Notes under the pieces: generated by a model
The model's database searches: none
What the model saw: the letters and a program-made list of their open reading frames with translations, nothing else
What the model was told of the DNA's origin: nothing
Program-made: the position numbers and the translations under genes
NCBI GenBank assembly: GCA_020861185.1
Contig: JAJBSV010000001.1
Span: 1 to 36,012 of the forward strand
Length of the DNA stretch: 36,012 nt
DNA from: Ruminococcus sp.
Lineage (GTDB): Bacteria; Bacillota; Clostridia; Oscillospirales; Ruminococcaceae
Direction: 5' to 3'
In this document: positions 7,984-33,856 of the stretch, one piece after another
How positions within the stretch are numbered: the stretch's first letter is position 1
Layout: each line of letters opens with the position of its first letter

Positions 7984-8049
7984 ACTTGTAACAAAGTCTA
8001 CAAATTCAAAAAAGATTTTTAAGAGTTTAGAACGCAAGGGATGATATCC

Positions 8050-12625: not shown

Positions 12626-13642
12626 TTATTTCATCTTTTTTTGATTCTTCCAACGAGGCTTCCATTTCAGAATATGATTAAAAACATCGACATCTTTAGG
12701 ATTGCTTCCTTGCTTGAGAAGCTCATCAAACGAGAAAAGTACGGTTGCAACCATTTCTGCTTGGTCGGTGCTTCTGATTCTGCTCAGAAGGTCAAATGCT
12801 TGGTCTGCATTTTTTATGTCCTGTTCCGTGAACTGATCCTCTTGCAATTTAAAATCAGGAGAGACAACGGTTTCAACCATTTTTCCGAGTTGACGTTCCG
12901 ACATCAGATTGGCATTGGACAATACCATAACAGCGTCTTTGACTTCCTTTGAATATGGTCCGTAACTGCCTTCGACAAAGTTGAAGCCAGTAGGCACACC
13001 GGTTCTGGTAAGGATGTAGCACACTTTCTGGAAAATAGTCCTTCCAACGTTCAAAGAGTACCTGTCGTTGTTCAATTTCTGGACAACGTAAAGAATCAGA
13101 AGCCAATATTTATTGAAAGGCAAACTCTGATTTCCGATTACATCCTCAGCAGAATGAATGATGTTTTTGGACAGGAAGCTCTCCGTAAGCTCTTCCGGTT
13201 TCGTTCCATAGGGAGCATAAATTTCAACGTCAATAGGAAGGTCATGCAGTTTTTCGTACATTACTGGTCCAACAACAGTCCATGGCAGACTGCCATTTCC
13301 ACACCCCAACGGCGGAAATGCGATGGATGTAATGCCGAGGTTATGATAATTATCTCTGAACCAATTTAGCCCATCAATGATATAAGAAAGCTTGGATGGC
13401 GAACGCCAATGATTTTTAGTCGGGAAATTGATAATCGAAGTGCCTGATAAATCAGAATAATAGTATGGAACTCCCGGCTTGACTTTTTCTGATTTGCACA
13501 GCTCAACGTATTCGCTGAACATAGCGGGGTACTTGTTCTTGAAATCAAGCGCAATGCCCTTGCCCATAACGCCCACACAATTAACTGTGTTGACGAGGGT
13601 TTGCGCCGAGCTTTCAAATATATTGCCTATTTTTACAATCAT
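12626..13642 (-). CDS. darG: DarG-like macrodomain antitoxin, C-terminus frameshifted
   Basis: DarG removes the ADP-ribose that DarT places on thymidines of DNA and also binds the toxin. Residues 1-150 are the DNA-type macrodomain (NTVNCVGVMGKGIALDFK near 16-33; FPPLGCGNGSLPW near 108-120). Residues 175-335 form the DarT-binding C-terminal domain (FQKVCYILTRTGVPTGFNF). The ATG at 13642 has GGCGGTGA upstream. As written the frame ends KKMK at 12626. Lengthening the seven-base T/A run at 12636-12642 by one restores a continuation, DEISDTILSLSSLGWMNPIY and onward, to a stop at 12534. About 31 residues are therefore displaced. The frame of the matching toxin is reduced to a remnant. Confidence 0.78.
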   Translation of the reverse strand: MIVKIGNIFESSAQTLVNTVNCVGVMGKGIALDFKNKYPAMFSEYVELCKSEKVKPGVPYYYSDLSGTSIINFPTKNHWRSPSKLSYIIDGLNWFRDNYHNLGITSIAFPPLGCGNGSLPWTVVGPVMYEKLHDLPIDVEIYAPYGTKPEELTESFLSKNIIHSAEDVIGNQSLPFNKYWLLILYVVQKLNNDRYSLNVGRTIFQKVCYILTRTGVPTGFNFVEGSYGPYSKEVKDAVMVLSNANLMSERQLGKMVETVVSPDFKLQEDQFTEQDIKNADQAFDLLSRIRSTDQAEMVATVLFSFDELLKQGSNPKDVDVFNHILKWKPRWKNQKKMK

Positions 13643-13656
13643 CAAATTCACCGCCT

Positions 13657-14054: not shown

Positions 14055-14471
14055 TCATATGCACTCCGGCTTGTCCCGTATTTCGGGGACGATGTCAGTC
14101 TCGGCGTGTCTGACGATTATTTTTGCATCTGCCGGATAGTTCAGGCTGATTGATGCAGGTCTCCCCAAACCTTGCTTTTTACGGACGATAAGTTTGCAGG
14201 ACTCCAGCTCTTTGAAGGTTCTTGTGGTACACTGTTTGCTTCGGTGAAGCTTTTTCGCCGCAGATTCGACGGTGAAGTACAGTCGGATAGTTCCGTCTGG
14301 CTCAACGTATCCGTTGAACTTGGAGATGCTTGCACGATCCAGCAAGAGAGCATACAGGACTTTTGCATCGTTTGACAGATCTTTCAGAGTCTCATCTGTC
14401 AGCAAAAACCTCGGCAAAGGTATGTATGAAGTTGCGGGGCTGTCTGTTTTAAATTTATAGAATTCTTTCAT
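14055..14471 (-). CDS. Replication initiator A family (RepA_N) protein, short
   Basis: A 138-residue protein matching the RepA_N winged-helix domain of low-GC plasmids and integrative elements (PLPRFLLTDETLKDLSNDAK near 18-37, then LYALLLDRASIS and KKQGLGRPASI near 118-128). Full initiators are longer, so this is a minimal or truncated form with the DNA-binding domain only. The ATG at 14471 has GGAGAAGAT upstream. Next to mobC it marks the remains of a mobile element. Independent replication seems unlikely without the C-terminal part. Confidence 0.72.
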   Translation of the reverse strand: MKEFYKFKTDSPATSYIPLPRFLLTDETLKDLSNDAKVLYALLLDRASISKFNGYVEPDGTIRLYFTVESAAKKLHRSKQCTTRTFKELESCKLIVRKKQGLGRPASISLNYPADAKIIVRHAETDIVPEIRDKPECI

Positions 14472-15018: not shown

Positions 15019-15024
15019 AGAAAT

Positions 15025-15400
15025 TCTCCTTTCACTATACAACGGACGCTTTTTCTGGAAAGTGTCCCATCAAATTTGAAAATAATTTTGCCGTTAGAAA
15101 ACTCCTCCTACTTTACAACGGACAATTTTTCAGCGTTTGTTGGGGTATGCACAGAAAAATTTTTTCTGAATGTGATTTGTGAAAACTCCCTCTACTTTAC
15201 AACGGACATAATTTTGTGGAGATGTTGCATCAATTTCGAAAAGTTTTTGCAGTGCGTGTTGCGTCGAAAAAAACTCTCTCAATTTACAACGGACAAATTT
15301 TCCGAAAAGTGTCCCACCAAATCCGAAATTTTTTCTTATGTGCGGCGCGTCGAAAAAAATCCCTTCTACTTTACAACGGACATTTTTTAGCGAAAAATTG
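15025..15400. repeat. Five direct repeats upstream of mobC (iteron-like)
   Basis: The core TTTACAACGGAC (first copy CTATACAACGGAC) with a preceding CTCC-rich stretch and a following A/T-rich tract occurs five times. The ACAACGGAC cores start at 15039, 15115, 15199, 15286 and 15373, spaced 76, 84, 87 and 87 bases. The flanks are partly shared (AAAGTGTCCCA(T/C)CAAAT after copies 1 and 4; AAAAATTTTTTCTG near copies 3 and 5). On the minus strand copy 1 gives the mobC ribosome site. The period and location suit replication iterons or a mobilisation/transfer site. The spacers are too irregular and similar to be CRISPR. Confidence 0.75.
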
Positions 15401-15704: not shown

Positions 15705-15733
15705 TTGCAATTCTGCTCACACAATGCTATAAT
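15705..15733 (+). promoter_or_regulatory. Sigma-A promoter of the phosphorothioation-type operon
   Basis: TTGCAA, a 17-base spacer and TATAAT, about 80 bases before the first start codon. No other strong promoter is seen until the sigma-factor gene, so it may drive the whole 13-kb operon. The hexamers resemble those of the abiE promoter. Confidence 0.7.
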
Positions 15734-15814
15734 ATGATAAATAGATACTTTGAATGTGCCAAAATGACAAAAAAAGCATAAGGCATATTCGCTTTGAAAA
15801 TGAGGGAGAAAGTC

Positions 15815-16141
15815 ATGTGGTGTAGTAAATGTAACATCGAAACAAATGAGAGCATATGCCCTATTTGCGGTGAAACCACTGTTGAAGATCTCCCTGTGGA
15901 AATATATTGGTGCAGTGAATGTAATGCACCGGTAATCCAAGTATCTGCTCAAGTTGACAAGGGCATATGCCCAATTTGCAAGAATAGGACAACATATTTG
16001 GCTTCAGATCTTCGCCCTGTTTTTCCTGAAGAAAGGCTCCTTTTGGAATTGTTGCTCGAAAAAAAGCCTAATGAATTTTTGGAGAAATCAGTATGGGCAA
16101 GCAATAACCGCGTTACTACATTGATGGCAAATCTATTCTGA
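15815..16141 (+). CDS. N-terminal zinc-ribbon part of the DndC-like protein (split by frameshift)
   Basis: These 108 residues carry two zinc ribbons: WCSKCN with CPICG near residues 2-20, and WCSECN with CPICK near 31-55. A segment SDLRPVFPEERLLLELLLE follows. This is the usual N-terminus of the large PAPS-reductase-like proteins of clostridial DNA-modification loci. At about 16109-16114 the frame breaks after W-A-S-N-N-R. The other frame continues Y-Y-I-D-G-K directly into the sulfurtransferase domain. One extra base (or two fewer) would restore a single protein of about 570 residues. The ATG at 15815 has GAGGGAGAAAG upstream. Confidence 0.75.
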   Translation: MWCSKCNIETNESICPICGETTVEDLPVEIYWCSECNAPVIQVSAQVDKGICPICKNRTTYLASDLRPVFPEERLLLELLLEKKPNEFLEKSVWASNNRVTTLMANLF

Positions 16142-16170
16142 TTTCTAATAGTCTCTATCAGGATGTAGAT

Positions 16171-17532
16171 GTGGATAAAATTATAGGTCTGCTACAGCAA
16201 AACAAAAGCACAAACTCGTATGAATTTTTCAATAATTATATGGCGAGCTTTGTTGTGGCAAATCAGACTCGTTTGAATTATCTCATAGATGAGGCTCATT
16301 CTTTTATTCAGAATGCAGCGTCGAAGTTTCCTGAAGAAAGAATTGTCGTATCTTTTTCCGGAGGAAAAGACTCAACTGTTACAGCCGACTTAGCAGCAAA
16401 AGCACTAAGCAATCCTTCGCTCGTACATATATTCGGTGACACGACATTAGAATTTCCGAGTACGATTGAATACGCTCATCGTTTCAGAGACGCACATCCT
16501 GAAGCTATATTTCAGATTGCAAAAAACGACGAACAGAATTTTTATGATGTTTGTGAAGATATAGGTCCACCGGCCCGAATGATGCGGTGGTGTTGTTCTA
16601 TGTTTAAGACGGGACCGATAACGAGAATAATCAATAGTTTGTATCGAAGTCAGCAAATATTAACTTTCTATGGGATTAGAAAATCGGAGTCTGTAAGTCG
16701 CAGTAAATACAATCGCATTGAGGATAATGCGGAAGCGGTGAAGATTCAGCAACAAACTGTCGCCTCTCCTATATTCTTTTGGAAAGATATTGACATTTGG
16801 CTATATCTCATCGCTGAAAAAGTTGACTTTAATGACGCATATCGTTTGGGCTACGATAGAGTTGGGTGTTGGTGTTGCCCAAATAATACTCTTAGGGCAC
16901 AATTTTTGTCAAAGATATATATGCCTGAGCAGTCAAAAAAGTGGCGTGAGTTTTTGATTGATTTCGCAAAGAAAATCGGAAAGCCAGATCCAGAAGTGTA
17001 TGTCGATACTGGAAAATGGAAGGCTCGTCAAGGCGGTAATGGGCTTCCTTCAGCAAGCGACGTAAAGATAAAATTTACTAATTGCACAGCCGAAGATCAT
17101 GCTAAAATTTATCGGTTAGTAAGACCATTTGATGATGAGTTGATAGGGATGTTTGTCCCATTTGGAAGAATTGCTCCCGAACTCGGAAGAAAGTTATTAC
17201 GAGAGGTAATTGTTCTTGACCATAAGACAAACGTACCTATACTTTCTCTTCAACCCTTTAATCAAGATGGCTATGATTATGCTGTCAAGGTGAGGACAAT
17301 GAATGTTGCAGATCATGATGATTTACAGCGAATGGTTGGTTACCAAATTCGCAAATTTAATGCTTGCAGAAAATGTTTGAAGTGTGAATCGCTTTGTAGA
17401 GCTGGCGCAATTTCGATTAGTAATTACGGTTACTATATCGATCCGCAAAAGTGTGTTCACTGTAAGTCCTGTATAACAGCAAAATATCTTGATGGTGGCT
17501 GTATGATGGACAAGTACCTAAGGACGAAATAA
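16171..17532 (+). CDS. dndC: PAPS reductase-like sulfurtransferase with ferredoxin domain (DndC-like)
   Basis: The PP-loop SFSGGKDSTV (residues 61-70) binds ATP and activates a substrate by adenylation. WRCCS-like MRWCCSMFKTGP (near 137-148) and RVGCWCCPNN (near 230-239) carry the cysteines expected for Fe-S or sulfur transfer. The C-terminus has a 4Fe-4S ferredoxin module (CRKCLKCESLC, then CVHCKSC near 431-437). In phosphorothioation systems DndC takes sulfur from the cysteine desulfurase and passes it to the DNA backbone with DndD and DndE. The GTG at 16171 is only the first start after a frameshift; the true N-terminus is the preceding zinc-ribbon part. The DUF4007 gene follows after 17 bases. 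Confidence 0.85.
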   Translation: MDKIIGLLQQNKSTNSYEFFNNYMASFVVANQTRLNYLIDEAHSFIQNAASKFPEERIVVSFSGGKDSTVTADLAAKALSNPSLVHIFGDTTLEFPSTIEYAHRFRDAHPEAIFQIAKNDEQNFYDVCEDIGPPARMMRWCCSMFKTGPITRIINSLYRSQQILTFYGIRKSESVSRSKYNRIEDNAEAVKIQQQTVASPIFFWKDIDIWLYLIAEKVDFNDAYRLGYDRVGCWCCPNNTLRAQFLSKIYMPEQSKKWREFLIDFAKKIGKPDPEVYVDTGKWKARQGGNGLPSASDVKIKFTNCTAEDHAKIYRLVRPFDDELIGMFVPFGRIAPELGRKLLREVIVLDHKTNVPILSLQPFNQDGYDYAVKVRTMNVADHDDLQRMVGYQIRKFNACRKCLKCESLCRAGAISISNYGYYIDPQKCVHCKSCITAKYLDGGCMMDKYLRTK

Positions 17533-17549
17533 GTAGTGGAGGTTGTCGT

Positions 17550-18446
17550 ATGGCGATGAAATTTCGTGCTCATGATACGTTTTTTATAAGAAAAGGTTGG
17601 CTTAGTAAAGGCATGAAGTATGTCGAGAAGAAGCCGGATGTGTTTGTTTCCAAAGATGAAAATCCAATGGATGTGCTTGGCATAGGTGCAAACATGGTTA
17701 AAGCTTTGCGTTACTGGCTCCAAGTGGTTGGTTTAACGCAAGAGCCAACAGCGGGAAAAAGAATACAAAGCTTTACCGACCTTGGAAAAAGTGTTTTTGC
17801 TAATGACAGGTATATTGAAGAGTTGGGAACCCTTTATCTTTTGCATTATCGTTTAGCATCAAATAGAGAAGAAGCAACAGCGTGGTATTTCTTTTTCAAT
17901 GAGTTCAATGTGACAGAGTTTTCTCGTAATGACTTTGTAGATTCTTTACAACGTCACATTTGCATGGAAGATGATGGTGAGGATGTCGCCATTCGTTCTT
18001 TGAATGATGATTTTAATTGCATAATTAGTACTTACTTACCCAGAAATAAATCGAACGCAAGCCGTATTGAACCTGAAAATAATATCGATTGTCCTTTTGG
18101 AGAATTGGGATTGGTTGATATTTTAAGCAAGGATAAAAAAACATACAGAAAAGGTATTCCTGTAGCAAATACAATCAATCCTTGGGTGGCGCTTGCTGTA
18201 ATAGTGGAACAAGCAAAAGGTGTGAAAGAGATTAGTCTAAATGAGCTATTAACTGCTCCATGTAACATTGGAAAAACTTTTAATTTAGATGCCATTACGA
18301 TGCTTGATGTTTTGTATCAGGTGGAACGCATTGGAAAGATTAAAATTAACAGAACCGCCGGTTTGGATGTTATACATATTTTAGATGAGCTTACATTTCA
18401 AGATTGTGTTGATGCTTATTACAATAGCATTGGCGGGCAGCAATAG
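17550..18446 (+). CDS. DUF4007 family protein
   Basis: A 298-residue cytosolic protein that begins with the family hallmark FRAHDTFFIRKGWLSKGM (residues 5-22) and continues NPMDVLGIGANMVKALRYW. DUF4007 genes are found almost always beside phosphorothioation-type genes in bacteria and archaea, and I recall them as part of the Pbe restriction module. The biochemical role is not established. The C-terminal third looks like tandem winged helices (LLTAPCNIGKTFNLDAITML). GTGGAGGTT precedes the ATG, and 11 bases separate it from the large ATPase gene. Confidence 0.85.
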   Translation: MAMKFRAHDTFFIRKGWLSKGMKYVEKKPDVFVSKDENPMDVLGIGANMVKALRYWLQVVGLTQEPTAGKRIQSFTDLGKSVFANDRYIEELGTLYLLHYRLASNREEATAWYFFFNEFNVTEFSRNDFVDSLQRHICMEDDGEDVAIRSLNDDFNCIISTYLPRNKSNASRIEPENNIDCPFGELGLVDILSKDKKTYRKGIPVANTINPWVALAVIVEQAKGVKEISLNELLTAPCNIGKTFNLDAITMLDVLYQVERIGKIKINRTAGLDVIHILDELTFQDCVDAYYNSIGGQQ

Positions 18447-18457
18447 GAGATTAAACT

Positions 18458-21400
18458 ATGAGTAATATGATTTCGGTTGCGTCAGGCTTTCAATATTCAG
18501 TCAATATTGCTTTTGACCTAGGTAACGATGAAAAACTCAAGAATTTTATACCCACAAGATCTTCGCTGAGCCTTCTTGAGGAAGTTTTACTCAGCACTGC
18601 AAAGACGTCTACAGAACGCTCACGCATTCTGATTGGTGCATACGGCAAGGGCAAGTCTCATATCGTTTTGACAATTCTCTCAATTTTGATGAAGCGGGAT
18701 TTGAAGTTATTTGAAAAAATGCTTCCAAAGTTAGAGGAAAATCCAAGAATCAAACAATGTGTTCTCAATTATTACGACAGCGATAACAGAATTCTTCCGG
18801 TTGTAATAAGCGGAAGTAACACAAGTTTACCTCAGGCATTTCTTCTTGCACTTCAGAGAACACTTTCCGATAATGATCTTTTGGATATTATGCCTGAAAC
18901 TAACTATAAGGCTGCTATATCCGTTATCGAACGGTGGCAAAATGAGTTTCCTGAAACATTTTCAGCTTTTCAGTTGGCTATTGGTGTACCTGTGACTAAG
19001 TTCGTTGACAGGCTTTCTTCGTATGACATTACTGCATATGAAGAGTTTGAACGCATCTATCCCACACTTACGGCTGGTAGCGTTTTTAATCCGTTCCTAG
19101 GATTTGATGTAGTTGAGCTATATGAAAGCGTAGCCGTTAGTTTGAAGCAAAAGGGGTATACGGGGATTTATGTGGTCTATGACGAGTTTAGCAAATATCT
19201 TGAAGCTAACATTACCGAAGCGTCGGTAAGTGATACAAAAATGCTTCAGGATTTTGCTGAAAAATGCAATCGGAGTGGAGAGACCCAACTTCACCTTATG
19301 CTGATTTCTCATAAAGAGATTGCAAATTACATCGATAAGTTGCCAAAGCAAAAGGTTGATGGTTGGCGTGGAGTTTCTGAACGATTTAAGCACATACACT
19401 TGAACAATAACTTCTCGCAGACGTATGAGATTATTTCTTCAGTTATTCAGAAAGAACCTATTTTGTGGAATCAATTTCAGATTGACCACAAGAGTGATTT
19501 TGAAGATATAACCCGTCGTTATATTTCACATCCGCTCTTTTCTGAGAATAAAGATGAATTGAAGACAGCTTTATATGGCTGTTATCCGTTGCATCCGGTG
19601 TCTACTTTTATTCTTCCCAGACTTTCGGAACGCATTGCTCAAAATGAGCGTACGCTGTTTACTTTCCTTTCAGCGTCTGGATATTCAACACTTCCCTCTT
19701 ATCTGGAACGCTCTAATGATGCGTTTGCATTTGTTACTCCTGACGTAATCTTTGATTATTTCGAACCGCTGTTCAAGAAAGAGGTATATGCAGGCGAGAT
19801 TCACGAGAATTATGTTTTAACAGCTAACATTCTTTCTCGAATTGAGTTTGATTCTTTGGAAGCAAAAATAGTAAAAACCATTTCGTTGTTCTATACTCTT
19901 GGACAATTTGAAAGATTAAAGCCTACTAAGGATGAAATAGTCGGTGTCTTTTCATCTGCATATGCCGCATCTGAAATCACTACAGCGATAGATAATCTTA
20001 TCGAGCGTGACTTCGTTATTTATCTTAAGAGAAGCAATAACTTTTTGAAGCTCAAGCAAACATCAGGAATAGATATTAAGCAAAAGATAAGTGATTATGC
20101 GGAATTTCACTCAAAGAAAGTATCGGTAAAAGAAATTCTTAACGCTTCTAATTTTGATAATTATATGTATCCGTCTCGATATAACGATGATCGAGAAATG
20201 ACTCGGTTCTTTGCTTTCATGTTTATTGATGAATCCGAAGTAAGAGCAGACACGGATTGGGACATTAAAAGTGAATCCATAGAAGCGGATGGCATTATTT
20301 ACGCTATCATTCCGCATAGTGAAGAATCTATTTCGCAGTTAAAAGAAACTATCCTCGAAACAAGTAAAGGTTGTAAAAGTCAGATATTTATCATACCTAA
20401 TCATTACACGAACATTGATGATATAGCACATGAATACGAGGCTGTAACTTTTCTTCGTGCCGAAGCGATAGATGATCCTGTTTTGCTTGATGAATATGAT
20501 GTGGTGTATGAGGATTTGCGTGAAGTGATTAGTGACTTCATATCAATCTATGCTCAACCTGAAAAATTCAAAGCGAGTTACATTTTCGATGGTGAGCAAA
20601 AAAATGTATGCAGAAAAGCCGCCTTAACTGAATTGATGTCAGATATTTGTGATCAAGTTTTTTCTCGTACTCCTGTTATCAGTAACGAAGCTGTAAATAG
20701 AAATGTAATAACAAGTATTGCAAGCAATAGCAGAAATAAGATTATAGCTGCTTTGCTTCGTAATCAACTTGAACCGAATCTGGGACTTTCCGGCACAGGG
20801 CAAGACGTGTCCATTATGCGAAGCACACTGCTTAGAACAGGAGTTTTTTCTAGCCAAGACGGTTTGCCCTCTCTTAATCTCCGCCCGGATGATTCTAATA
20901 TTGCAAATATGTTGGAGACGATAGAGGACTTCGTACTAAGCGCAAAGCGAAACGAAAGAATTGGATTCGATGTCTTATATGGTATTCTCACCCTTCCTGA
21001 ATATCACATTGGTCTTCGTAAGGGACTAATTCCGATCTATTTGGCAGTTGTCCTTCATGAATACAAGCAACAAGTAATCATACTTGACCGATTTGGACAA
21101 GTTCCCATATCAGCAGATGCTCTTCTTCAGATAAACGCCAATCCATCTGCCTTCTCTTTGTCATATCTTGACTGGGATTCTGAAAAGGAGAGTTTCATTG
21201 AGCAGCTTTCGGCTGTTTATTTTGAATACATAATCGAGGCTGAAAAGGGCGCAAACGCATATGACTTTGTTGTAAATGCGATGAAACGTTGGGCTATGTC
21301 ACTGTCTAAGTATGCAAAGGAAATTAAGATACAGCCGAATGGTAAGAAAATTGATAATAGGCATCTATCGTTGCTCAAGCTTTTGAAACAGAATACTAGT

Positions 21401-22066
21401 AGTTATGAGCTGTTGTTTGAAAAGCTACCAAAGGCATATGGCTATGCTGATAAATTCTCTGCGGGTTTAGTAGACAATATCAGTGTATCTAAGAGTTACT
21501 TTGATGGGCTTGTTGACGATTTGAAAATGGTGCTTATATCTGAGACTAAGCGGATTTTCATGCTCCCGCAGAATGATGCTTTTGTCTCAAAGATGTCTTT
21601 GACTTCTACTATCAAAGAATGGTGTGACTCTGTTAGTCCTTCTGCTTTTAGTCATATCTTCCCTGATGGTACCGATAAATGTCTTTCTCTTTTCAAAACT
21701 GTTACAAACGATGAAAATGCATTTATCGTTCGTTTGGCAAAAACTGCTACCGGTTTGCGTGTCGAAGATTGGGACGATGGAACTGTCGAAGCTTTCAAAA
21801 ATAGACTCATTCAGTACAAAGAAACAGCAGAAAGCTATCACGAAGAAGTCTATAACGAACAATCAGATTGCACATCAAATTACAGAGTTACATTTGTGGA
21901 ACCGGATGGCACTTCTACAACAAAGAGTTTTGAAAGAGTGGCTTATAGCAACCGTGGGAAGTTGCTATTCAATCAGATAACACAATCTTTGGATTCCATG
22001 GGACACGCTATTACTGAACAAGAAAAGCGGCAAATTATTATGGAGATACTTGAAAAATTATGTTAA
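18458..22066 (+). CDS. Large P-loop ATPase of the defence operon (BrxC/PglY-like)
   Basis: A 1202-residue protein. Walker A is GAYGKGKS at residues 60-67 and a Walker B-type segment YVVYDEFSKYLEA lies at 238-250. That DEF-x-K-Y/F-L-E arrangement is like the BREX ATPase BrxC/PglY. The remaining 900 residues are mostly helical and unassigned, with a C-terminal domain rich in charged residues. In related loci a giant ATPase sits between DUF4007 and the helicase and is thought to power recognition or restriction of unmodified DNA. There is no signal peptide or membrane segment. The frame is intact over 3.6 kb, in contrast to its neighbours. The exact family name is uncertain. Confidence 0.78.
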   Translation: MSNMISVASGFQYSVNIAFDLGNDEKLKNFIPTRSSLSLLEEVLLSTAKTSTERSRILIGAYGKGKSHIVLTILSILMKRDLKLFEKMLPKLEENPRIKQCVLNYYDSDNRILPVVISGSNTSLPQAFLLALQRTLSDNDLLDIMPETNYKAAISVIERWQNEFPETFSAFQLAIGVPVTKFVDRLSSYDITAYEEFERIYPTLTAGSVFNPFLGFDVVELYESVAVSLKQKGYTGIYVVYDEFSKYLEANITEASVSDTKMLQDFAEKCNRSGETQLHLMLISHKEIANYIDKLPKQKVDGWRGVSERFKHIHLNNNFSQTYEIISSVIQKEPILWNQFQIDHKSDFEDITRRYISHPLFSENKDELKTALYGCYPLHPVSTFILPRLSERIAQNERTLFTFLSASGYSTLPSYLERSNDAFAFVTPDVIFDYFEPLFKKEVYAGEIHENYVLTANILSRIEFDSLEAKIVKTISLFYTLGQFERLKPTKDEIVGVFSSAYAASEITTAIDNLIERDFVIYLKRSNNFLKLKQTSGIDIKQKISDYAEFHSKKVSVKEILNASNFDNYMYPSRYNDDREMTRFFAFMFIDESEVRADTDWDIKSESIEADGIIYAIIPHSEESISQLKETILETSKGCKSQIFIIPNHYTNIDDIAHEYEAVTFLRAEAIDDPVLLDEYDVVYEDLREVISDFISIYAQPEKFKASYIFDGEQKNVCRKAALTELMSDICDQVFSRTPVISNEAVNRNVITSIASNSRNKIIAALLRNQLEPNLGLSGTGQDVSIMRSTLLRTGVFSSQDGLPSLNLRPDDSNIANMLETIEDFVLSAKRNERIGFDVLYGILTLPEYHIGLRKGLIPIYLAVVLHEYKQQVIILDRFGQVPISADALLQINANPSAFSLSYLDWDSEKESFIEQLSAVYFEYIIEAEKGANAYDFVVNAMKRWAMSLSKYAKEIKIQPNGKKIDNRHLSLLKLLKQNTSSYELLFEKLPKAYGYADKFSAGLVDNISVSKSYFDGLVDDLKMVLISETKRIFMLPQNDAFVSKMSLTSTIKEWCDSVSPSAFSHIFPDGTDKCLSLFKTVTNDENAFIVRLAKTATGLRVEDWDDGTVEAFKNRLIQYKETAESYHEEVYNEQSDCTSNYRVTFVEPDGTSTTKSFERVAYSNRGKLLFNQITQSLDSMGHAITEQEKRQIIMEILEKLC

Positions 22067-22078
22067 AAAGGTGATTAA

Positions 22079-23224
22079 ATGGCTTACTTTGATAATGCGG
22101 CGACTACATATCCCAAACCTGAAATCGTCTATCAGAGTATGGATCAATTTCAGAGACACACAGGAGGCAGCTTTGGGCGTGGAAATTATGAGTTTTCCAA
22201 TTCCGCTAAAGGCTTGGTTGATGATACCCGCTTGGCAATAAGCGAAATACTACATTGTCCGTCTAAGCAAGTCATCTTTGAACCGTCTGCAACTATTGCG
22301 CTAAACATTATTATTCAGGGCATCTTATCAAGAGGATTGAGAACTGTTTACATTAGTCCATTTGAGCATAATGCCGTGACGAGGACTTTACATTTTTACG
22401 AAAAACGAGGTATCATCAAGGTAATTGAGCTTTGTGTCAATCAGGATTTGATTTATGATCTTCAGCGTATTCGCTTTCAGTTTGATAGTGAATCACCGGA
22501 CTTGGTGATTGTTAGTCATGCCAGTAATGTAATAGGCTTAGTAGCACCAGTAGAGGAAATTTTCTTATTAGCAAAAGAATATAACGCTGTAACTCTATTG
22601 GATATGTCTCAGACAGCGGGTCTTGTAGATTGTAATGTTGGGAATGATGTGTTTGACTTTGCTGTATTTGCAGGACACAAAACTTTGTTGGGACCAACGG
22701 GCATTTCGGGGTTTGTTATGAAGCCTGATTTAGACCTTAATCCAGTGTTCTTCGGCGGTACAGGCTTTGACTCGGCTAATCAAGATATGCCTGATTCGTT
22801 ACCGGAAAGATTTGAGTTTGGCACAATGAATTCTGTCGGTATTGCAGGGCTAAACGCTTCGACGAGATGGATTATTAATCAGGGAATAGCTACGCTCGCT
22901 ACTGCTGAAGAAATTAATCGGGATCGACTTTTGAAAATCTTGCAATCATACGACTTTCTTTCTATTGTTGGGAATGTAAATGGAAGAAAATATGTGGGCA
23001 TTGTGTCGTGCTTAATTGATGGGATAAGTAGTGATACAGCAGGTCAGCTTTTTAGTGATAGGAACATTTCTGTACGAACCGGTTTGCATTGCACTCCATT
23101 GGCACACAAATTCCTTAAAACCTACCCTGCCGGCACTATCCGTTTCAGCGTCAACAGTTTTACATCTGAATCGGATTTTGCAGAATTGAAAGATGCTCTC
23201 GATGATATAAGTGACAATTTGTAG
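22079..23224 (+). CDS. dndA: Cysteine desulfurase (DndA-like)
   Basis: A 381-residue class V aminotransferase that uses PLP to take sulfur from cysteine. The PLP lysine is K201 in FAGHKTLLGPTG and the catalytic cysteine is C338 in VRTGLHCTPLAHK. The N-terminus YFDNAATTYPKP is typical of IscS/SufS-like enzymes. Within this operon it should load sulfur onto the DndC-like protein, giving the system its own sulfur source. The start lies 12 bases after the ATPase stop, with AAAAGGTG upstream. It is complete and should be active. Confidence 0.88.
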   Translation: MAYFDNAATTYPKPEIVYQSMDQFQRHTGGSFGRGNYEFSNSAKGLVDDTRLAISEILHCPSKQVIFEPSATIALNIIIQGILSRGLRTVYISPFEHNAVTRTLHFYEKRGIIKVIELCVNQDLIYDLQRIRFQFDSESPDLVIVSHASNVIGLVAPVEEIFLLAKEYNAVTLLDMSQTAGLVDCNVGNDVFDFAVFAGHKTLLGPTGISGFVMKPDLDLNPVFFGGTGFDSANQDMPDSLPERFEFGTMNSVGIAGLNASTRWIINQGIATLATAEEINRDRLLKILQSYDFLSIVGNVNGRKYVGIVSCLIDGISSDTAGQLFSDRNISVRTGLHCTPLAHKFLKTYPAGTIRFSVNSFTSESDFAELKDALDDISDNL

Positions 23225-23236
23225 GGAGATAGTGAT

Positions 23237-25459
23237 ATGAATCTTCAAGAAGTTAGTATAAAGAAAGAATATCGATCTCTCATTGACAATGTTGTTCAGG
23301 AGTTTTATATCCCACTTCTTCAAAGAGCTACTGTGTATAAGAGAGCCGTAGGATTCTTTTCGTCATCATCGCTTGTGGAACTAACTAAGGGAATCGCAAC
23401 AATGGCTGCAAATGGAGGGAAAATTCAAATTGTTGCGTCACCATATCTTTCGGAAGAAGATATTGAGGCAATACGGAAGGGATATGCTGAAAGAAATAGT
23501 GTAATCGAACGGGCTGTCTTGCGGCAGATAACAGGTGAGACGGTAGACTACTACTCAATGCAACGCCTTAACCTTCTTGCGAACTTAATTGCCAATGGTG
23601 TACTGGACATTCGAATTGCGTATACCGAGGAAAATGGCGGAATCGGTATGTACCATGAGAAGATGGGTATCATCGAAGATTGCGAAGGTAATGCTGTAGC
23701 GTTTTCTGGGTCTATGAATGAATCTGCAACTTCGATGTCTATAAACTATGAGGCAATAGATGTTTATCGTAGTTGGGGAGATAAAGATGAAGTAGATCGT
23801 GTTCGCTTAAAGCAGAATGCTTTCTGCTCGATATGGAATGATAGTGAACCGAATATCAAAGTTTTGGAGTTTCCAAGCATCTCTCAAGCACTAATTGACA
23901 AATACAAGAAGACTTCTCCGAATTTCGATATTGATAAGGAGCAATTTCCTCCAAAAGAGAAACATACCCGTTTATACAAAGAGGGTAATGTTGAGATTCG
24001 CACAGGTGCCGCAGGTCCACGCATACCTGAGAGCATTTCGCTACATGACTATCAAGTAGAAGCGATTGTAGCTTGGGTTGGAGAGAATTACCGTGGAATT
24101 TTTGATATGGCGACCGGTACAGGCAAAACCTTTACTGGATTGGGCGCAATCTCAAAATTATCTGAAGATTTAAACGATAGATTAGCTGTCATCATTGTTT
24201 GCCCCTATCAACATCTTGTTGAACAATGGGTAGAGGACATTGTTCGGTTTAACATGAAACCGATTATCGGATATAGCAGTTCACCGCAAAAAGATTGGAA
24301 ACAGCGATTGTCTAAAGCTGTGTTAGATCAGAAGATACGAGCGGACAGAAGCTTCTTTTGCTTTGTTTGTACTAACGCTACATTTGCAAGTAAGTATGTG
24401 CAAGAGCAGATAGGAAAGATAAATTCACCAATCTTACTCGTGGTCGATGAAGCGCATAACTTTGGAGCGGCTTCATATGCGAAATTACTAGATGACCGTT
24501 TTACATATAGGCTGGCGTTATCTGCTACACTTGAAAGACATCGTGACGAAGAAGGAACAGCGTTTCTTTATAATTTCTTCGGGAAAAAGTGCATTGAATA
24601 TCCTTTGGAGCGTGCTATTCGCGAAGACAAATTAACGCCTTACAAGTATTATCCTGTCGTTGTGTATCTTAGCGAAGATGAACTTGCCAATTATGAGCAG
24701 GTTTCTTATGAGATGTCTAAGTGCATCATTAAGGGAAAAGACGGAAAGTACAAGTTGAATAAGCATGGTGAGATATTGGCTCTTCAGCGAGCAAGAATCG
24801 TAGCAGGTGCTTCTGAAAAACTTGTTGCATTGCGCGAAGAAATTAAGCCATATATTCATGACAATAACATCCTTGTATATTGCGGTGCAACCAACGTTAT
24901 AGACGAGAAGTCTGATACTTCTTCCTTTGATGAAGGAGATATTCGCCAAATTAAAGCAGTAACTCGAATACTTGGAAATGAGCTTGGGATGAGTGTGGCA
25001 CAGTTTACGTCTCAGGAAAACATGGAGACTCGCACCACTATCAAGGAGCAATTCCAAAAGGGAGATAGGTTGCAAGCAATCGTAGCAATTAAGTGTTTGG
25101 ATGAAGGCGTGAATATTCCGGGAATAAAGACTGCTTTCATTTTGGCAAGTACAACAAATCCAAAAGAGTATATACAGCGGCGTGGTCGTGTTCTGAGAAA
25201 AGCACCCAATAAGCCATTTGCGGTTATATATGATTTTGTAACCTTACCAAGACCGCTTGATTCGGTACCATCGTTGACAGCTGATCAAGCAAAACGAGAT
25301 TTGTCACTCGTAAAAAATGAAGTAGCAAGACTTAAGGAGTTCGGTCGTTTGGCTATGAATCCAATGGATTCAAATGAATTGATATGGAATATACAAGATA
25401 CATATCACATAACCGATGAAGAATCGGGCGAAAGGAGTTTCGATTATGGAGAAAATTAA
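23237..25459 (+). CDS. PLD-domain superfamily II helicase of the DNA-modification operon
   Basis: A 740-residue protein. The N-terminus holds a phospholipase-D-type half-site, MYHEKMG (H140, K142) with SGSMNES at 157-163, seen in nucleases that act as dimers. The helicase core follows: ATGTGKT at 292-298, DEAH at 404-407, SAT at 429-431, and an arginine motif IQRRGRVLR near 620. Such fusions are annotated elsewhere as phosphorothioation-associated restriction enzymes. The likely role is translocation on and cutting of DNA lacking the modification. It starts 12 bases after the desulfurase gene, and its end overlaps the start of the 54-aa gene. All motifs are intact. Confidence 0.85.
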   Translation: MNLQEVSIKKEYRSLIDNVVQEFYIPLLQRATVYKRAVGFFSSSSLVELTKGIATMAANGGKIQIVASPYLSEEDIEAIRKGYAERNSVIERAVLRQITGETVDYYSMQRLNLLANLIANGVLDIRIAYTEENGGIGMYHEKMGIIEDCEGNAVAFSGSMNESATSMSINYEAIDVYRSWGDKDEVDRVRLKQNAFCSIWNDSEPNIKVLEFPSISQALIDKYKKTSPNFDIDKEQFPPKEKHTRLYKEGNVEIRTGAAGPRIPESISLHDYQVEAIVAWVGENYRGIFDMATGTGKTFTGLGAISKLSEDLNDRLAVIIVCPYQHLVEQWVEDIVRFNMKPIIGYSSSPQKDWKQRLSKAVLDQKIRADRSFFCFVCTNATFASKYVQEQIGKINSPILLVVDEAHNFGAASYAKLLDDRFTYRLALSATLERHRDEEGTAFLYNFFGKKCIEYPLERAIREDKLTPYKYYPVVVYLSEDELANYEQVSYEMSKCIIKGKDGKYKLNKHGEILALQRARIVAGASEKLVALREEIKPYIHDNNILVYCGATNVIDEKSDTSSFDEGDIRQIKAVTRILGNELGMSVAQFTSQENMETRTTIKEQFQKGDRLQAIVAIKCLDEGVNIPGIKTAFILASTTNPKEYIQRRGRVLRKAPNKPFAVIYDFVTLPRPLDSVPSLTADQAKRDLSLVKNEVARLKEFGRLAMNPMDSNELIWNIQDTYHITDEESGERSFDYGEN

Positions 25460-25610
25460 TGTCGATGAGAAGGCTGTTGAACGCCTGAAGCGCAAAATAA
25501 TTATTCAGGAAAATCAGAATTTGAAGACGCGAACTATGAATGATCAGCAAATGGTCGGGTGGATTAAGAAGCAAATTGAGGAGGAAGCACAATGTTACTT
25601 GAATCAATAA
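25446..25610 (+). CDS. Small DNA-modification-associated protein
   Basis: A 54-residue highly charged helical protein (VDEKAVERLKRKIIIQENQN). The start overlaps the helicase end by 14 bases and the stop overlaps the dndD-like start by 19 bases, so expression is coupled to both. GAAAGGAG precedes the ATG. Similar tiny proteins occur directly before DndD-like genes in other loci. A DndE-like or adaptor role is possible but not shown by any motif. Confidence 0.65.
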   Translation: MEKINVDEKAVERLKRKIIIQENQNLKTRTMNDQQMVGWIKKQIEEEAQCYLNQ

Positions 25611-27436
25611 CACTTGAAAACTTCAGACAGTTCCGTCATGAATCCATTGATTTTGCTCAGGGTGATAACGGCAAAAATGTCACAATCATCATCGGCGAAA
25701 ATGGTACAGGTAAGACTACTTTCGCTCAGGCTTTCTTCTGGTGTATGTATGGCGAAACTGAGTTCTCTGACAAAAATATGCTCAACAAGCTTGTTGCAAA
25801 TGAAATGAAACCGGGGCAAGAGGAAAAAGTTCAAGTAACTTTGAAGCTACGCCATGGTGATGTTAATTATACCCTCATGCGTGAGCAGACATATCGCAAA
25901 GATTACTCTAACCATGTGAAAGGCGATAATACGATTTTTGACATTGCTAAAAAGGACGCTGACGGTAACACTTCCTATGTAAAGAAAACTCAGTGTGAGA
26001 GCGAAGTCAAAAGTATTCTCCCGAAAGAATTATCTAAATACTTCTTCTTTGATGGAGAACGTATTGAAAGAATGAGTAAAGATATTTCTGCCGGAAAGAA
26101 AGCCACCGATTTTGCTGATGCTGTTAAGGGATTGCTTGGCTTAAATGCAATGTATAGTGCTATCCAACATTTCAATCCCAGATCTAAGGTTGGTGTTATC
26201 GGAAGTTACGAAAGTAGTTATGACGCTCACAGCAATTCTAAAATTCAGGAATACACGAGCACTATTGAACGTTGTAAGTCGAAGATTGCAGAGATTGATG
26301 CAAGACTTGAAGATTTGGAATCTCAAGTAGAGCAAGCCAGAGCACGAAAAGCAGATAAAGCGGAGGAAATCAAACAGTATGCAGAAGGCGAAGAATTACA
26401 ACGTCAGAAAGAGAAGCTTATACAAAAAATAAAAACAACTAGTAGCTCCAAATCAAATGTTGTTAAGAATATGTGCAAAGATTTCAATAGTGGCATGAGT
26501 TCATTTTTCTCTACAGCACTCATAGAGCGTTCCCTCAAATTCTTGTCTGATAAAGACTTCACAGGAAAAGATATTCCTTTTATGCACACCAAAACTATTG
26601 AATACCTATTAAACCAAAAGGTTTGCATATGTGGAACCCATTTGGATGAAGGTTCTGTTCCTTATGAAAAAGTTAAGGAACTTATTGACTTTCTCCCTCC
26701 TCAGTCTATTAGTACAACCGTTAGCGATTTCAAAAAAGAGTCTAAACATCGTGTCAATGCACAACGCGATTTGCTTGCCGATATTAGTGACAACATTGAA
26801 ATCATCAGCCGACAAGACGAAGAAATAGGTGAGCTTCAGGATGAGTTACATCGTATTGAGGTAAAGCTTAGCGGTGATGATGTTAGGGCAAAAGTGCGTA
26901 CGATTAATAACGAAATTCAGATTTGTGATAAAATTATTAGAGACAGCAATAGTGAAAGAGAACGTCTTCTAAGGGGCAAAGGTGCCTACGAGAACGAGGC
27001 TGAACGTGCAGATACTGAACGCAGAAACCTCACTTTGCTGGATGAAAAGAACAAGAAAATTGAAGTTTATAAAGCATATGCAGAACGCATTTATGAAGAA
27101 CTTCAGAGTGTGTATGTCACAAGTGAAGCAGAAATACGCAGTAAGTTAGAAACAACTATCAATGATATTTTCAAGAGCATTTACGAAGGCGGCTTATCTT
27201 TGACCATTGATGAGAAATATCATATTTCCGTATATGCAGATGAGTATGACGGTGATGTTGAGACATCAACTGCACAGAGTATTTCTGTTATCTTCGCATT
27301 TATCACGGGCATTATTAAGATGGCTCGTGATAATAGAAATGCAACTGATGAAGATGCGAAGCTACTGTCTTCAGAACCCTATCCGTTAGTGATGGATGCT
27401 CCGCTGTCAGCATTTGATAAACCCGAGCATAGCTGA
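25592..27436 (+). CDS. dndD: DndD-like SMC/Rad50-type ATPase, C-terminus disrupted
   Basis: DndD is the ATPase that nicks or opens DNA for sulfur insertion. Visible parts are Walker A IIGENGTGKT (residues 33-42), KYFFFDGERIERM near 148-160, two coiled-coil arms (about 205-300 and 385-500), a CICG hook-like pair near 345, and the Walker B/D-loop VMDAPLSAFDK at the end. In the family the D-loop is followed by a helix of ten or more residues and then a strand. Here the frame leaves after K and stops four codons later, while the strand and tail appear in another frame (27423-27557). A deletion of some 30 bases is inferred. Nucleotide cycling would probably be impaired. Confidence 0.82.
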   Translation: MLLESITLENFRQFRHESIDFAQGDNGKNVTIIIGENGTGKTTFAQAFFWCMYGETEFSDKNMLNKLVANEMKPGQEEKVQVTLKLRHGDVNYTLMREQTYRKDYSNHVKGDNTIFDIAKKDADGNTSYVKKTQCESEVKSILPKELSKYFFFDGERIERMSKDISAGKKATDFADAVKGLLGLNAMYSAIQHFNPRSKVGVIGSYESSYDAHSNSKIQEYTSTIERCKSKIAEIDARLEDLESQVEQARARKADKAEEIKQYAEGEELQRQKEKLIQKIKTTSSSKSNVVKNMCKDFNSGMSSFFSTALIERSLKFLSDKDFTGKDIPFMHTKTIEYLLNQKVCICGTHLDEGSVPYEKVKELIDFLPPQSISTTVSDFKKESKHRVNAQRDLLADISDNIEIISRQDEEIGELQDELHRIEVKLSGDDVRAKVRTINNEIQICDKIIRDSNSERERLLRGKGAYENEAERADTERRNLTLLDEKNKKIEVYKAYAERIYEELQSVYVTSEAEIRSKLETTINDIFKSIYEGGLSLTIDEKYHISVYADEYDGDVETSTAQSISVIFAFITGIIKMARDNRNATDEDAKLLSSEPYPLVMDAPLSAFDKPEHS

Positions 27437-27557
27437 GCAGGTTGTCATCTTTATTAAAGATACCGATGGCGAGCTTGCAGAAGAATACATGGGTGATAAA
27501 ATTGGCAGTCGTCATTACTTTGATAAAAAGAATGAATTTGAAACTGTACTAGTGTAA
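27423..27557 (+). pseudogene. Out-of-frame C-terminal tail of the dndD-like gene
   Basis: Reads P-S-I-A-E-Q-V-V-I-F-I-K-D-T-D-G and continues to a valine-rich end before TAA at 27555-27557. This is the expected last strand and tail of DndD after the D-loop helix. It has no start codon. The next gene starts 13 bases later with its ribosome site in between, confirming that this is where the intact gene would end. Confidence 0.75.
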
Positions 27558-27569
27558 GGAGGAAGACTA

Positions 27570-28103
27570 ATGTTTGATAAACAATACCGTTTTCATGGTA
27601 GACACGCAGTGCGTGTTGATGCTTTGACAAGTGTTTTTGACAGTGACAGCAAGGCAAAGCTATTTGAACGAAATGTTGATGTATATACAAATGCACCATT
27701 GGTCGGATTCCTCTATGGCAGAACGGCTGAAGTAGACGATACTCGTAATCCTGAGACAAATCAAGTTTACAATCAGAATGTCATGGGCGATAGAGTGATC
27801 TATTCGCAAGAAGAGCTTCTTTTCAATTTCCGGTTGATTATGCTTCTTGATAAGTCATACGAGCCGGATGAAAATGTTCGGATCGATAAGGCATTTCGTC
27901 ATATGGGAGAAGATTCTGCTGACGAAGCACGCTTCGATAGTTATGTTCGTGGAGGTGTTGATGTTCTTTACGAGAAATTGATAGATGGGGCTTCTTCTCC
28001 CGATGAGTATGTAACACGGCTCTATGAGTTCGTTGAAGAGTTTCATGAAAAGTTTAATAGTGAGGTATCAGGAGAAGATATTTTGAAGTTATGTTCTAAG
28101 TAA
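27570..28103 (+). CDS. Hypothetical protein of the defence operon
   Basis: A 177-residue soluble protein with GTAAGGAGGAAG before the ATG. No motif is recognised. It begins FDKQYRFHGRHAVRVDALTS, contains a conserved-looking APLVGFLYGR near 42-51, and ends acidic and helical (YEFVEEFHEKFNSEVSG). It occupies the slot after dndD where dndE is usually found, but it is longer than DndE and lacks the DndE sequence I would expect. It could be a system-specific DndE substitute or a Pbe-type component. Confidence 0.7.
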   Translation: MFDKQYRFHGRHAVRVDALTSVFDSDSKAKLFERNVDVYTNAPLVGFLYGRTAEVDDTRNPETNQVYNQNVMGDRVIYSQEELLFNFRLIMLLDKSYEPDENVRIDKAFRHMGEDSADEARFDSYVRGGVDVLYEKLIDGASSPDEYVTRLYEFVEEFHEKFNSEVSGEDILKLCSK

Positions 28104-28119
28104 GGAAGAGGCGAGAGCT

Positions 28120-29256
28120 TTGGAAAGGGATAATCGTCAAATCGCATATGAGAACCTAATAGCCCTTGCAGAGATACAAGGGTATGTAACGTTCGATAAT
28201 ATTATGGACTGTGCAGACGAGTGTTCCCTTTCAATCCAAGACTTTGATTGGCTGAGTAGTTCGATTATAACCAGAGGTATTTTAGTGTATAGCGAGCCGT
28301 CATCTCAAGCTAATGCATCCTCAACCGAAGTAGATTTCTATGATTATGCACAGAGTGATTATGATGATGTCTTTGAACGTATAATCAAGCTTGACTCTTC
28401 TTTAGAACCTCTTGTATCAGCAGTAAGGAATATCATTCCGCCGCAAAGAGGAGAGATTGGTAGACTCAAATATCAGGTTGTCGAAGGGAATTCATACGCT
28501 CGTAAGCGCATGATTGAAATGCACTTGAGACTAGCATTGAAAGTGGCACTTCAAAGAGCTGAGACATATGACATTGACATTGAGGATGCTGTAGGATATG
28601 CCTTCATTGGATTAGTTACCGCCGTCGAAAAGTATGATCCCGACACCAATGATGCCTTTTCATCGTATGCGACCCTATGGATGTTGCAGAATATATCCAG
28701 AGAGCAGGAAACAAGGCGTCCATCAATCTATTATCCTGTTCATGTCAAAGAAAAATGTTTTGCCGCCTATCCGTTGCTAAAACAGTATGGGTGTACTGAG
28801 TGTGAAGAACTTGGGAAGTGTTCAGAATCTGTACAGTTAATAAGCAAAGAACTTGAGTGTTCTTACGAAGAAGCAGAGTTTATAAAGTCAACGGTAGTGC
28901 CTGATATAAGTATGGGCGAATTGCTGTACGATGCCGATAGCGAAGAAGGTATGGACGGCTTTATTTTAAGTAGCTTTCCTGCTAATAGTATTTTGTGTGA
29001 GGAAGATATGTATTTGCTCATTAGGTCTGGACTTGTAAGCGAAGAAATTTCGAAAATCTTGGAAGTTCTAACTCAAAAAGAAAGGGAGATTGTCAATCTT
29101 CGTTTTGGACTCAATGGCAGACCTCATACCCTAGATGAAATTGGACATATGCGGAATCTAACACGGGAAAGAATTAGGCAAATAGAAAAGAACGCCTTAC
29201 GAAAGCTGAAAAGACAAGCAAAACGTACGAGCCTGGCGGAACTGTATTTTGATTAG
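28120..29256 (+). CDS. Sigma-70 family RNA polymerase sigma factor in the defence operon
   Basis: A 378-residue sigma factor. Region 2 is visible near residues 125-200 (DAVGYAFIGLVTAVEKYDPD, then YATLWMLQNISREQETRRPS). Region 4 lies near 312-368 (LTQKEREIVNLRFGLNGRPH, then TRERIRQIEKNALRKLKRQ). The N-terminal 90 residues are unrelated to housekeeping region 1 and may sense a signal. Region 3 is replaced by a cysteine-containing insert (GCTECEELGKC). It starts at the TTG at 28120, 17 bases after the previous stop, with AAGGAAGAG upstream, so it belongs to the operon. It could direct polymerase to the defence genes or take over a phage-like promoter class. The promoter it recognises is unknown. 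Confidence 0.82.
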   Translation: MERDNRQIAYENLIALAEIQGYVTFDNIMDCADECSLSIQDFDWLSSSIITRGILVYSEPSSQANASSTEVDFYDYAQSDYDDVFERIIKLDSSLEPLVSAVRNIIPPQRGEIGRLKYQVVEGNSYARKRMIEMHLRLALKVALQRAETYDIDIEDAVGYAFIGLVTAVEKYDPDTNDAFSSYATLWMLQNISREQETRRPSIYYPVHVKEKCFAAYPLLKQYGCTECEELGKCSESVQLISKELECSYEEAEFIKSTVVPDISMGELLYDADSEEGMDGFILSSFPANSILCEEDMYLLIRSGLVSEEISKILEVLTQKEREIVNLRFGLNGRPHTLDEIGHMRNLTRERIRQIEKNALRKLKRQAKRTSLAELYFD

Positions 29257-33166: not shown

Positions 33167-33856
33167 ATGTTTTTCAAGCTATTATCAAATATATTCAGCC
33201 GCCTGCTCTGGTTCGCCCTCCACATCGAGGACAAAAGCTCGTTCCCGAAGCCACTCAGTCCCGCAGAGGAGGAGCGGCTTTTCAAGGCTTTTGCGGAGGG
33301 AGACACCGCCGCACGGGACGCGCTCATCTTCCACAATCTGAGGCTGGTCGCCCACATCGTGAAGAAGTACTACGTCACCGCCGACGAGCAGGAGGAGCTG
33401 ATTTCAATCGGCACAGTCGGGCTCATCAAGGCAGTCAACTCGTTCGACCCGACGAAGGGAAATCGTTTTGCGGCGTTCGGGGCGAGGTGTATCGAAAACG
33501 AAGTGCTGATGCACTTCCGCTCCGTGAAGAAAACCGCGCAGGACGTCCACTTTGACGAGCCGATCGACACCGACAAGGACGGGAACCAGCTGACTCTCAT
33601 GGACATCATCGCCGTGGACGGCGACATCGGCGAGGAGGTCGACCTGCGGCTCAACTCCCAGAGGCTCTACCAAGCCATCGGTGTCCTCGATGACCGCGAG
33701 CGCGAAATCGTCATCCTTCGCTACGGGCTCTTCGGCAGACAGCCGCTCACGCAGAGGGAAGCCGCCAGCCTCCTCGGCATCTCCCACAGCTACGTCTCGC
33801 GAATTGAGAAGCGAGCGATTGAGAAACTCAGAGGGGAGTTTGGAATAAATGGGTGA
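33167..33856 (+). CDS. sigK: RNA polymerase sporulation sigma factor sigma-K
   Basis: A complete 229-residue sigma-K, which drives late mother-cell genes for spore coat and cortex. It has the short N-terminal membrane-associated pro-sequence (LLSNIFSRLLWFALHI), which SpoIVFB removes in Bacillus, then region 2 (LRLVAHIVKKYYVTADEQEE; SIGTVGLIKAVNSFDP) and the linker FRSVKKTAQDVHFDEPIDTD. Region 4 follows (LDDREREIVILRYGLFGRQP; REAASLLGISHSYVSRIEK). It is not interrupted at the C-I-E-N-E site where skin elements insert. The GGGGTGAT ribosome site and leader match the fragment at 6993. A hairpin terminator overlaps the stop. Confidence 0.92.
   Translation: MFFKLLSNIFSRLLWFALHIEDKSSFPKPLSPAEEERLFKAFAEGDTAARDALIFHNLRLVAHIVKKYYVTADEQEELISIGTVGLIKAVNSFDPTKGNRFAAFGARCIENEVLMHFRSVKKTAQDVHFDEPIDTDKDGNQLTLMDIIAVDGDIGEEVDLRLNSQRLYQAIGVLDDREREIVILRYGLFGRQPLTQREAASLLGISHSYVSRIEKRAIEKLRGEFGING

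Follow-up and report, generated by a model that had tools for sequence, protein, structure and literature searches.

A probable composite phosphorothioation defense operon in Ruminococcus, joining an Ssp/BREX type 4-like writer to PbeABCD and a sigma factor

We have analyzed an operon within a stretch of 36,012 nucleotides of DNA from a Ruminococcus species (contig JAJBSV010000001.1, positions 1 to 36,012), which we call the window; the genome that carries it comprises 1.97 Mb in 16 contigs. The operon extends along the + strand from a sigma-A-type promoter, the −35 box of which begins at 15,705, to 29,256. Our conclusion is that it probably encodes a composite phosphorothioate (PT) defense system, in which a writer of the Ssp or BREX type 4 kind is combined with the effector PbeABCD and with a sigma factor as accessory. 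We are led to this because hidden Markov models (HMMs) place the large genes in these families, PbeD has the DndE fold, and the order of the large genes is maintained in 54 of 80 related loci.

The proteins of the window were compared by hmmscan with the PADLOC, Pfam and NCBIfam collections. The PADLOC matches were far beyond chance, for PbeA (E = 1.8e-246), SspC (3.3e-128), PbeC (9.7e-104), BrxP (2.8e-73) and SspB (1.1e-59), and SspB also matched Pfam DUF4007 with E = 1.4e-85. All the genes lie on the + strand. The first encodes a 3′-phosphoadenosine-5′-phosphosulfate (PAPS) reductase resembling BrxP and SspD. It is split into an N-terminal zinc-ribbon piece (15,815..16,141) and a piece carrying the PAPS-reductase domain, with the motif SGGKDS, and a 4Fe-4S ferredoxin (16,171..17,532), for which BrxP is the best PADLOC match (245 bits vs 52 for SspD). 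SspB (DUF4007) follows at 17,550..18,446, then an SspC/BrxC-type ATPase of 1202 amino acids (aa) at 18,458..22,066, matching SspC and also BrxC in PADLOC, and a cysteine desulfurase of the SspA/DndA type at 22,079..23,224, identified by HMM and by residues K201 and C338. A reading of the sequence alone had proposed a PT-type defense operon with a relation to Pbe and an unusual sigma factor, and the matches to Ssp, BrxP and Pbe models bear this out, as does the presence of the SGGKDS, K201 and C338 motifs that it named. That reading had assigned the DUF4007 protein and the giant ATPase to a Pbe module; they are instead SspB and SspC, which BREX type 4 also has.

The second part of the operon is the Pbe effector. 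PbeA (23,237..25,459) combines a phospholipase D (PLD) domain with an SF2 helicase; its HKD, Walker A and DEAH motifs are present, and with 818 bits in PADLOC it is PbeA itself, rather than the extra part for which the PLD-helicase had been taken. A 54-aa protein (25,446..25,610) sits in the place of PbeB; it gave no HMM match in PADLOC, and its membership is based on its position, observed in 49 of the 54 ordered loci, and on alignment with three homologues. The DndD-like ATPase of the sequence-only reading is PbeC (25,592..27,436), a DndD/CxC-type ABC ATPase with its CxC motif at residue 345 and 346 bits against the PADLOC PbeC model, here truncated by a frameshift. PbeD (27,570..28,103; 177 aa) has no family HMM match and is identified as the cognate of DndE by its fold, so a clear DndE relative is not lacking as had been thought. 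The last gene (28,120..29,256) encodes a sigma-70-type factor with regions 2 and 4 and a weak region 1.1 that is below the Pfam cut-off.

These identities suggest how the system might function. The cysteine desulfurase would supply sulfur to the BrxP-like PAPS reductase which, guided by SspB and SspC, would insert it at a short motif into the host DNA backbone. By this sulfur mark PbeABCD would then distinguish host from phage DNA and block the latter, with PbeA acting as a nuclease-helicase, PbeC and PbeD as a scanning pair and PbeB as a small regulator. The sigma factor, as an accessory of one Pbe branch, would most likely link the system to RNA polymerase as regulator, sensor or decoy. Parts of earlier papers are in keeping with this scheme, in that the brxPCZL genes of BREX type 4 are placed among the PT-making families (PMC11931770), SspB and SspC are common to Ssp and BREX type 4, with DUF4007 and the desulfurase treated under BREX 4 (PMC12839542), and Pbe is described as halting virus replication in archaea in a PT-dependent manner (PMC6459918). 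Whether Pbe cuts DNA is disputed between parts of PMC6459918 and PMC10853773.

We examined the conservation of the operon by scanning GTDB contigs with an alignment of the SspC ATPase, retaining the best 80 of 428 relatives (loci denoted by L numbers). In 54 of the 80 loci the order PAPS reductase-SspB-SspC-desulfurase-PbeA-PbeC-PbeD is found on one strand, a count of the seven large genes between which others may intervene. The homologues are therefore not scattered; scattering was the outcome that the sequence-only reading had put forward as speaking against it. In L060 the genes are present but out of order, and it is not included in the 54. Several of the remaining loci stop at a contig edge, and in at least nine the desulfurase is followed by a different effector, consisting of a HerA-type protein and two more (L023, L039, L041, L047, L058) or of helicase, HATPase and PLD proteins (L051, L088, L089, L095); L023 and L051 were typed by Pfam, and the others by size and order. 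Of the 60 loci that carry all the genes of the set, 48 are from Bacillota. The motifs are strongly conserved: SGGKDS in 78/78 reductases, the desulfurase cysteine in 80/81, the SspC Walker A in 86/86 and HKD in 63/63 PbeA loci, a number that includes L089 although its helicase belongs to another effector type. All 59 PbeC proteins have a CxC near residues 340-400 and a Walker-type GK[ST]; 25 of the 59 did not fit a strict Walker A pattern, and inspection of the 24 that a looser pattern still failed to match revealed a variant, GxNTxGK. Where dS could be estimated, dN/dS was 0.02-0.13.

Two genes of the window copy are broken. The two pieces of the reductase lie in different frames, while they match a single protein in 72 of 72 reductases of at least 500 aa (loci L018-L097). 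PbeC meets a stop at 27,436 and its remnant continues in another frame to 27,557; alignment with the DNA of L018, the nearest relative, reveals a short frame-shifting deletion in the window. Relatives with intact reductase and PbeC genes exist; judged by gene length, the cultured strains Pseudobacteroides cellulosolvens ATCC 35603, Catenisphaera adipataccumulans DSM 25799 and Acetobacterium bakii DSM 8239 have full-length copies. The breaks in the window may be true lesions or assembly errors, and the system in this genome is probably inactive. The description of nine genes running head to tail is correct as to order and spacing (17, 11, 12, 12, −14, −19 and 16 nt), except that the first gene is split over two frames and that 133 nt separate the early PbeC stop from the next gene. 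Compared with L018, dN was 0.07-0.17 for eight genes (the reductase being represented by its larger piece) and 0.36 for the sigma factor, with dS mostly saturated.

What is the role of the sigma factor? Among 53 deduplicated loci with room downstream (the window included), the gene immediately following PbeD encodes a full sigma factor in 23 (L049 being scored as such despite a shorter sigma-like frame in between), and a protein of 905-1019 aa containing the C-terminal domain of the RNA polymerase alpha subunit (alpha-CTD) and sigma region 4 is found there in six, L056 having been assigned to this class by hand. Near copies more than 97% alike in SspC (L025, L070, L081 and others) were dropped from these counts, and likewise from the correlations within the sigma loci, the palindrome count and the rate comparison of independent pairs given below; L009 and L081 appear to be the same contig retrieved twice. 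Pfam scans of these tails covered 30 representative proteins. In L062 the alpha-CTD-sigma4 protein lies between the desulfurase and PbeA. Its counterpart in L028 is poorly modeled from residue ~340 to ~744 (mean predicted local distance difference test score 57). These proteins have no match to sigma region 2, and thus they should not melt promoters. A third, unnamed family in the place of the sigma factor, aligned from 12 loci (L043, L036, L037, L040, L030, L034, L044, L079, L081, L085, L091, L054), is variable and mostly has an acidic C-terminal part; seven of the 12 were scanned with Pfam and gave no match at E ≤ 0.01. Other genes after PbeD encode GmrSD-type proteins (L017, L038, L066) and a PC4 protein (L071).

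Within the 24 sigma loci the distances between sigma factors track those between PbeC proteins (r = 0.94; partial r = 0.83 given SspC), and with PbeC fixed the partial correlation with SspC is 0.24. On the PbeC tree, a quick tree with several long branches, the presence of the sigma factor requires four changes compared with 19.8 in shuffles. From this tracking and the few changes we conclude that the sigma factor travels with the Pbe unit.

One tentative but reasonable explanation is that the sigma factor is a dedicated activator, taking the place of sigma-A at the promoter of its own operon. In 25 of the 54 strictly ordered loci its gene comes after PbeD, and in L054 (F. prausnitzii) it is the first gene of the operon. 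A sigma-A-like promoter that beats 95% of shuffles was found in 5 of 27 loci with sigma against 16 of 46 with neither type of tail, but the difference is not significant (Fisher p = 0.18). A sigma-specific promoter was rejected on this ground, no de novo motif search having been made. Moreover, the promoter of the window (15,705..15,733, TTGCAA-17-TATAAT) is a clean sigma-A type, its score being reached by none of 100 shuffles of the upstream stretch; the start that the sequence-only reading gave, 15,705, coincides with its −35 box. A palindrome near the operon start, GTCCGTTTTNNGGAC, is matched at 12 or more of its 14 positions in 13 of 76 loci compared with 0.13% of shuffles, but in loci both with and without sigma; it was first spotted by eye and then counted in those same sequences, so it is a lead only. 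A small XRE-type helix-turn-helix gene lies immediately 5′ of the reductase in 26 of 78 loci (e.g., L065:147-389 and L031:5847-6038), and it too is found both with and without sigma.

It is also possible, if somewhat doubtful, that the sigma factor serves as a sensor, guard or decoy on RNA polymerase or promoter DNA, which would report or block takeover by phage and so trigger Pbe. Residues 123-373 of the window sigma match SigA structures. Within RERIRQ, which we take to be the stretch that reads the −35 element, every residue other than I is conserved in 26-27 of 27 copies, and I in 18; in the helix that presumably reads the −10 element Q is kept in 26/27 and R in 27/27. The first of the two tryptophans that we assume to act in melting, as in other sigma-70 factors, is mostly leucine, with W in 3/27. 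The sigma factor is the fastest changing of the seven or eight genes compared (PbeB apart) in nine of nine independent pairs of loci; for the two pairs that allowed an estimate of dS, its dN/dS was 0.06 and 0.13. Judged from sequence, such conserved contacts to polymerase and DNA with rapid change elsewhere would suit a partner in an arms race, and alpha-CTD-sigma4 proteins hold the same place in other loci. The rapid change could also reflect relaxed constraint, as in the region-3 linker where mean identity is 22%, and this is the simpler alternative.

Both sigma types lead to a more general proposal, which we regard as speculative, that a large Pbe branch carries a transcription-derived part, either a full sigma factor or alpha-CTD-sigma4, coupling PT immunity to RNA polymerase. 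Such a part might for instance be bait for phage proteins that seize polymerase, or guide Pbe to phage promoters. We searched 398 genomes of the phylum of the window for PbeA (TIGR04095, at least 360 bits), giving 22 loci of which 20 were fetched; this PbeA-anchored sample leaves out the locus of the window and that of genome G421. Two of these, L131 and L133, have a full sigma factor after PbeD, and in the second the fetched stretch contains no writer. In L139, L141, L142 and L146, all without an Ssp-type writer, a protein of 958-1320 aa that includes sigma region 4 lies directly 5′ of PbeA; those of L141 and L142 also contain alpha-CTD, the matches in L141 being under the Pfam cut-offs. As a separate observation, the window encodes another sigma-70 protein, of 229 aa and with regions 2 and 4, at 33,167-33,856 (+), ~4 kb past the operon.

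A number of results weigh against the composite PT assignment. The match of PbeA to TIGR04095 has a score of 492 bits, under the cut-off of 600. Foldseek alone found no match for PbeD in the PDB at E < 0.001, and in a profile search of PDB sequences the strongest match (E = 0.002) covered 29 residues of a designed protein. The SspC-anchored sample leans toward near kin because only the best relatives were kept, and 24 of the 53 deduplicated loci, L054 among them, have neither sigma nor alpha-CTD-sigma4 after PbeD. Ten of the 20 PbeA-anchored loci are without an Ssp-type writer in the stretch fetched. Lastly, the pairwise protein distances of writer and Pbe genes are only weakly correlated over all loci (r = 0.30-0.39, Mantel p = 0.001-0.002), and so writer and Pbe pairs have often been exchanged. 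The last two results, with the occurrence of the writer beside other effectors, would be expected if writer and Pbe were independent systems sharing an operon, such that Pbe did not read the mark of this writer. We think this unlikely. One order on one strand is kept in most of the loci, and PT dependence of Pbe is reported for archaea in parts of PMC6459918. Distances correlate at 0.87-0.95 among the writer genes and at 0.92-0.96 among PbeA, PbeC and PbeD (the split reductase of the window being omitted and its truncated PbeC used as it is). Given the high correlation within each set and the weak one between them, the operon is best described as two units that have been re-paired over longer times. 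Within 24 sigma loci the writer-Pbe correlation is 0.68-0.93, and thus in this branch the pairing has been stable.

Could the sulfur be used for a modification other than DNA phosphorothioation? The PAPS-reductase and PP-loop families catalyze many reactions, and the NCBIfam matches of the reductase include "hypothetical protein" models from the PRK13795 group. Such another modification seems distinctly improbable, since each of the four writer genes matches models for PT-linked systems, and in 10 loci the operon contains or adjoins a gene for a DndB family protein (PF14072). DndB is a known partner of Dnd, and its presence therefore supports the link to PT. It is located 3′ of sigma in nine loci (two near-identical pairs included); that of L077 lies between SspC and the desulfurase, that of L027 is a 220-aa fragment, and we saw none in the window. 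Six loci have a protein that weakly matches GIY-YIG, as judged by Pfam in L024 and by similarity in the rest. Finally, that the sigma factor is a mere passenger adjoining the operon, or a chance neighbor, would fit the many loci that lack it, but was rejected as highly improbable by its adjacency to PbeD, its tracking of PbeC and the few changes on the PbeC tree.

The composite PT system may be compared with those already known. DndCDEA-PbeABCD (Xiong 2019, PMC6459918), or CxC-DndE (Rakesh 2024, PMC10853773), has the same order of Pbe genes, the CxC hook and a PbeD of DndE fold; the likeness proposed from the sequence extends to all of PbeABCD, but the writer here is of Ssp/BREX4 type rather than DndCDE, and a sigma factor follows. 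The sole match to TIGR03185 (DndD) in the genome is PbeC, below cut-off. Two models of DndFGH gave no matches, but the controls were silent too. With SspABCD (-SspE, -SspFGH) the operon has SspA-, SspB- and SspC-like writer genes in common, whereas its reductase is nearer to BrxP and the adjoining effector is Pbe, replaced in some sister loci by the HerA-type trio. SspE or SspFGH is not directly beside the writer, the genes there being PbeA-D (judged, for PbeA and PbeC, among the matches listed). The scan also took in 10 flanking proteins, and a weak partial match to SspE (E = 1e-4) was given by one that lies 10 kb upstream. BREX type 4 (brxPCZL) shares the BrxP-like reductase with ferredoxin, DUF4007, the BrxC/SspC ATPase and the desulfurase, but here DUF4007 is a separate protein and the effector is Pbe; membership of BREX type 4 was rejected as PglZ has no match in the whole genome (the control being positive in 2 of 14). 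MZA likewise has a sigma-70 family protein inside a defense operon. MzaA is the sole PADLOC match of our sigma factor (NCBIfam MzaA 134 bits vs a cut-off of 800), but only the sigma part matches, and MzaB-E are not among the matches listed for 20 open reading frames of the window.

The impression that no described system corresponds to this operon is thus correct for the combination only, as its parts match known systems. Pbe has been described with Dnd writers, while SspB-SspC stands beside Pbe in 10 of the 20 PbeA-anchored loci, a pairing that may explain some of the Pbe genes that were reported as "solitary" in 2019. In the literature open without subscription, including parts of PMC7464106, PMC12707154, PMC9252829 and PMC9523054, we found neither an Ssp-type writer with Pbe nor a sigma factor in a Pbe operon, and the main text of PMC12839542 does not contain the word PbeA. 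Parts of RNA polymerase machinery (sigma, alpha-CTD) inside a DNA-modification defense would offer a testable link between sulfur marks, transcription and immunity.

Upstream of the operon are five imperfect 33-nt direct repeats (15,022..15,388) at a spacing of 76-87 nt, with a RepA_N-type gene (14,055-14,471, −) on their far side. Their core is TTTACAACGGACA in four copies and TATACAACGGACG in one, also written ACAACGGAC; they may be operator half-sites, or else belong to a mobile element as its iterons. The operon DNA had no match in plasmids, a search of viral contigs for the SspC-type ATPase, with a single sequence and with an alignment, gave no result, and Rfam and tRNA scans of the window gave no matches. 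Other genes of the window encode a DarG-type macro-domain antitoxin (12,626-13,651, −; PADLOC 289 bits), an AbiEi/AbiEii toxin-antitoxin pair (8041-9533, +), and a GmrSD_N domain fused to an ADP-ribosylglycohydrolase (3287-5902, +) that lies 3′ of a macro-domain protein (1350-2366). At the edge of the window, the match of a 395-aa protein (4-1191, −) to type IIG (MmeI-like) restriction enzymes, which are longer than 900 aa, is confined to their first part; the protein may either run on beyond the window or be truncated.

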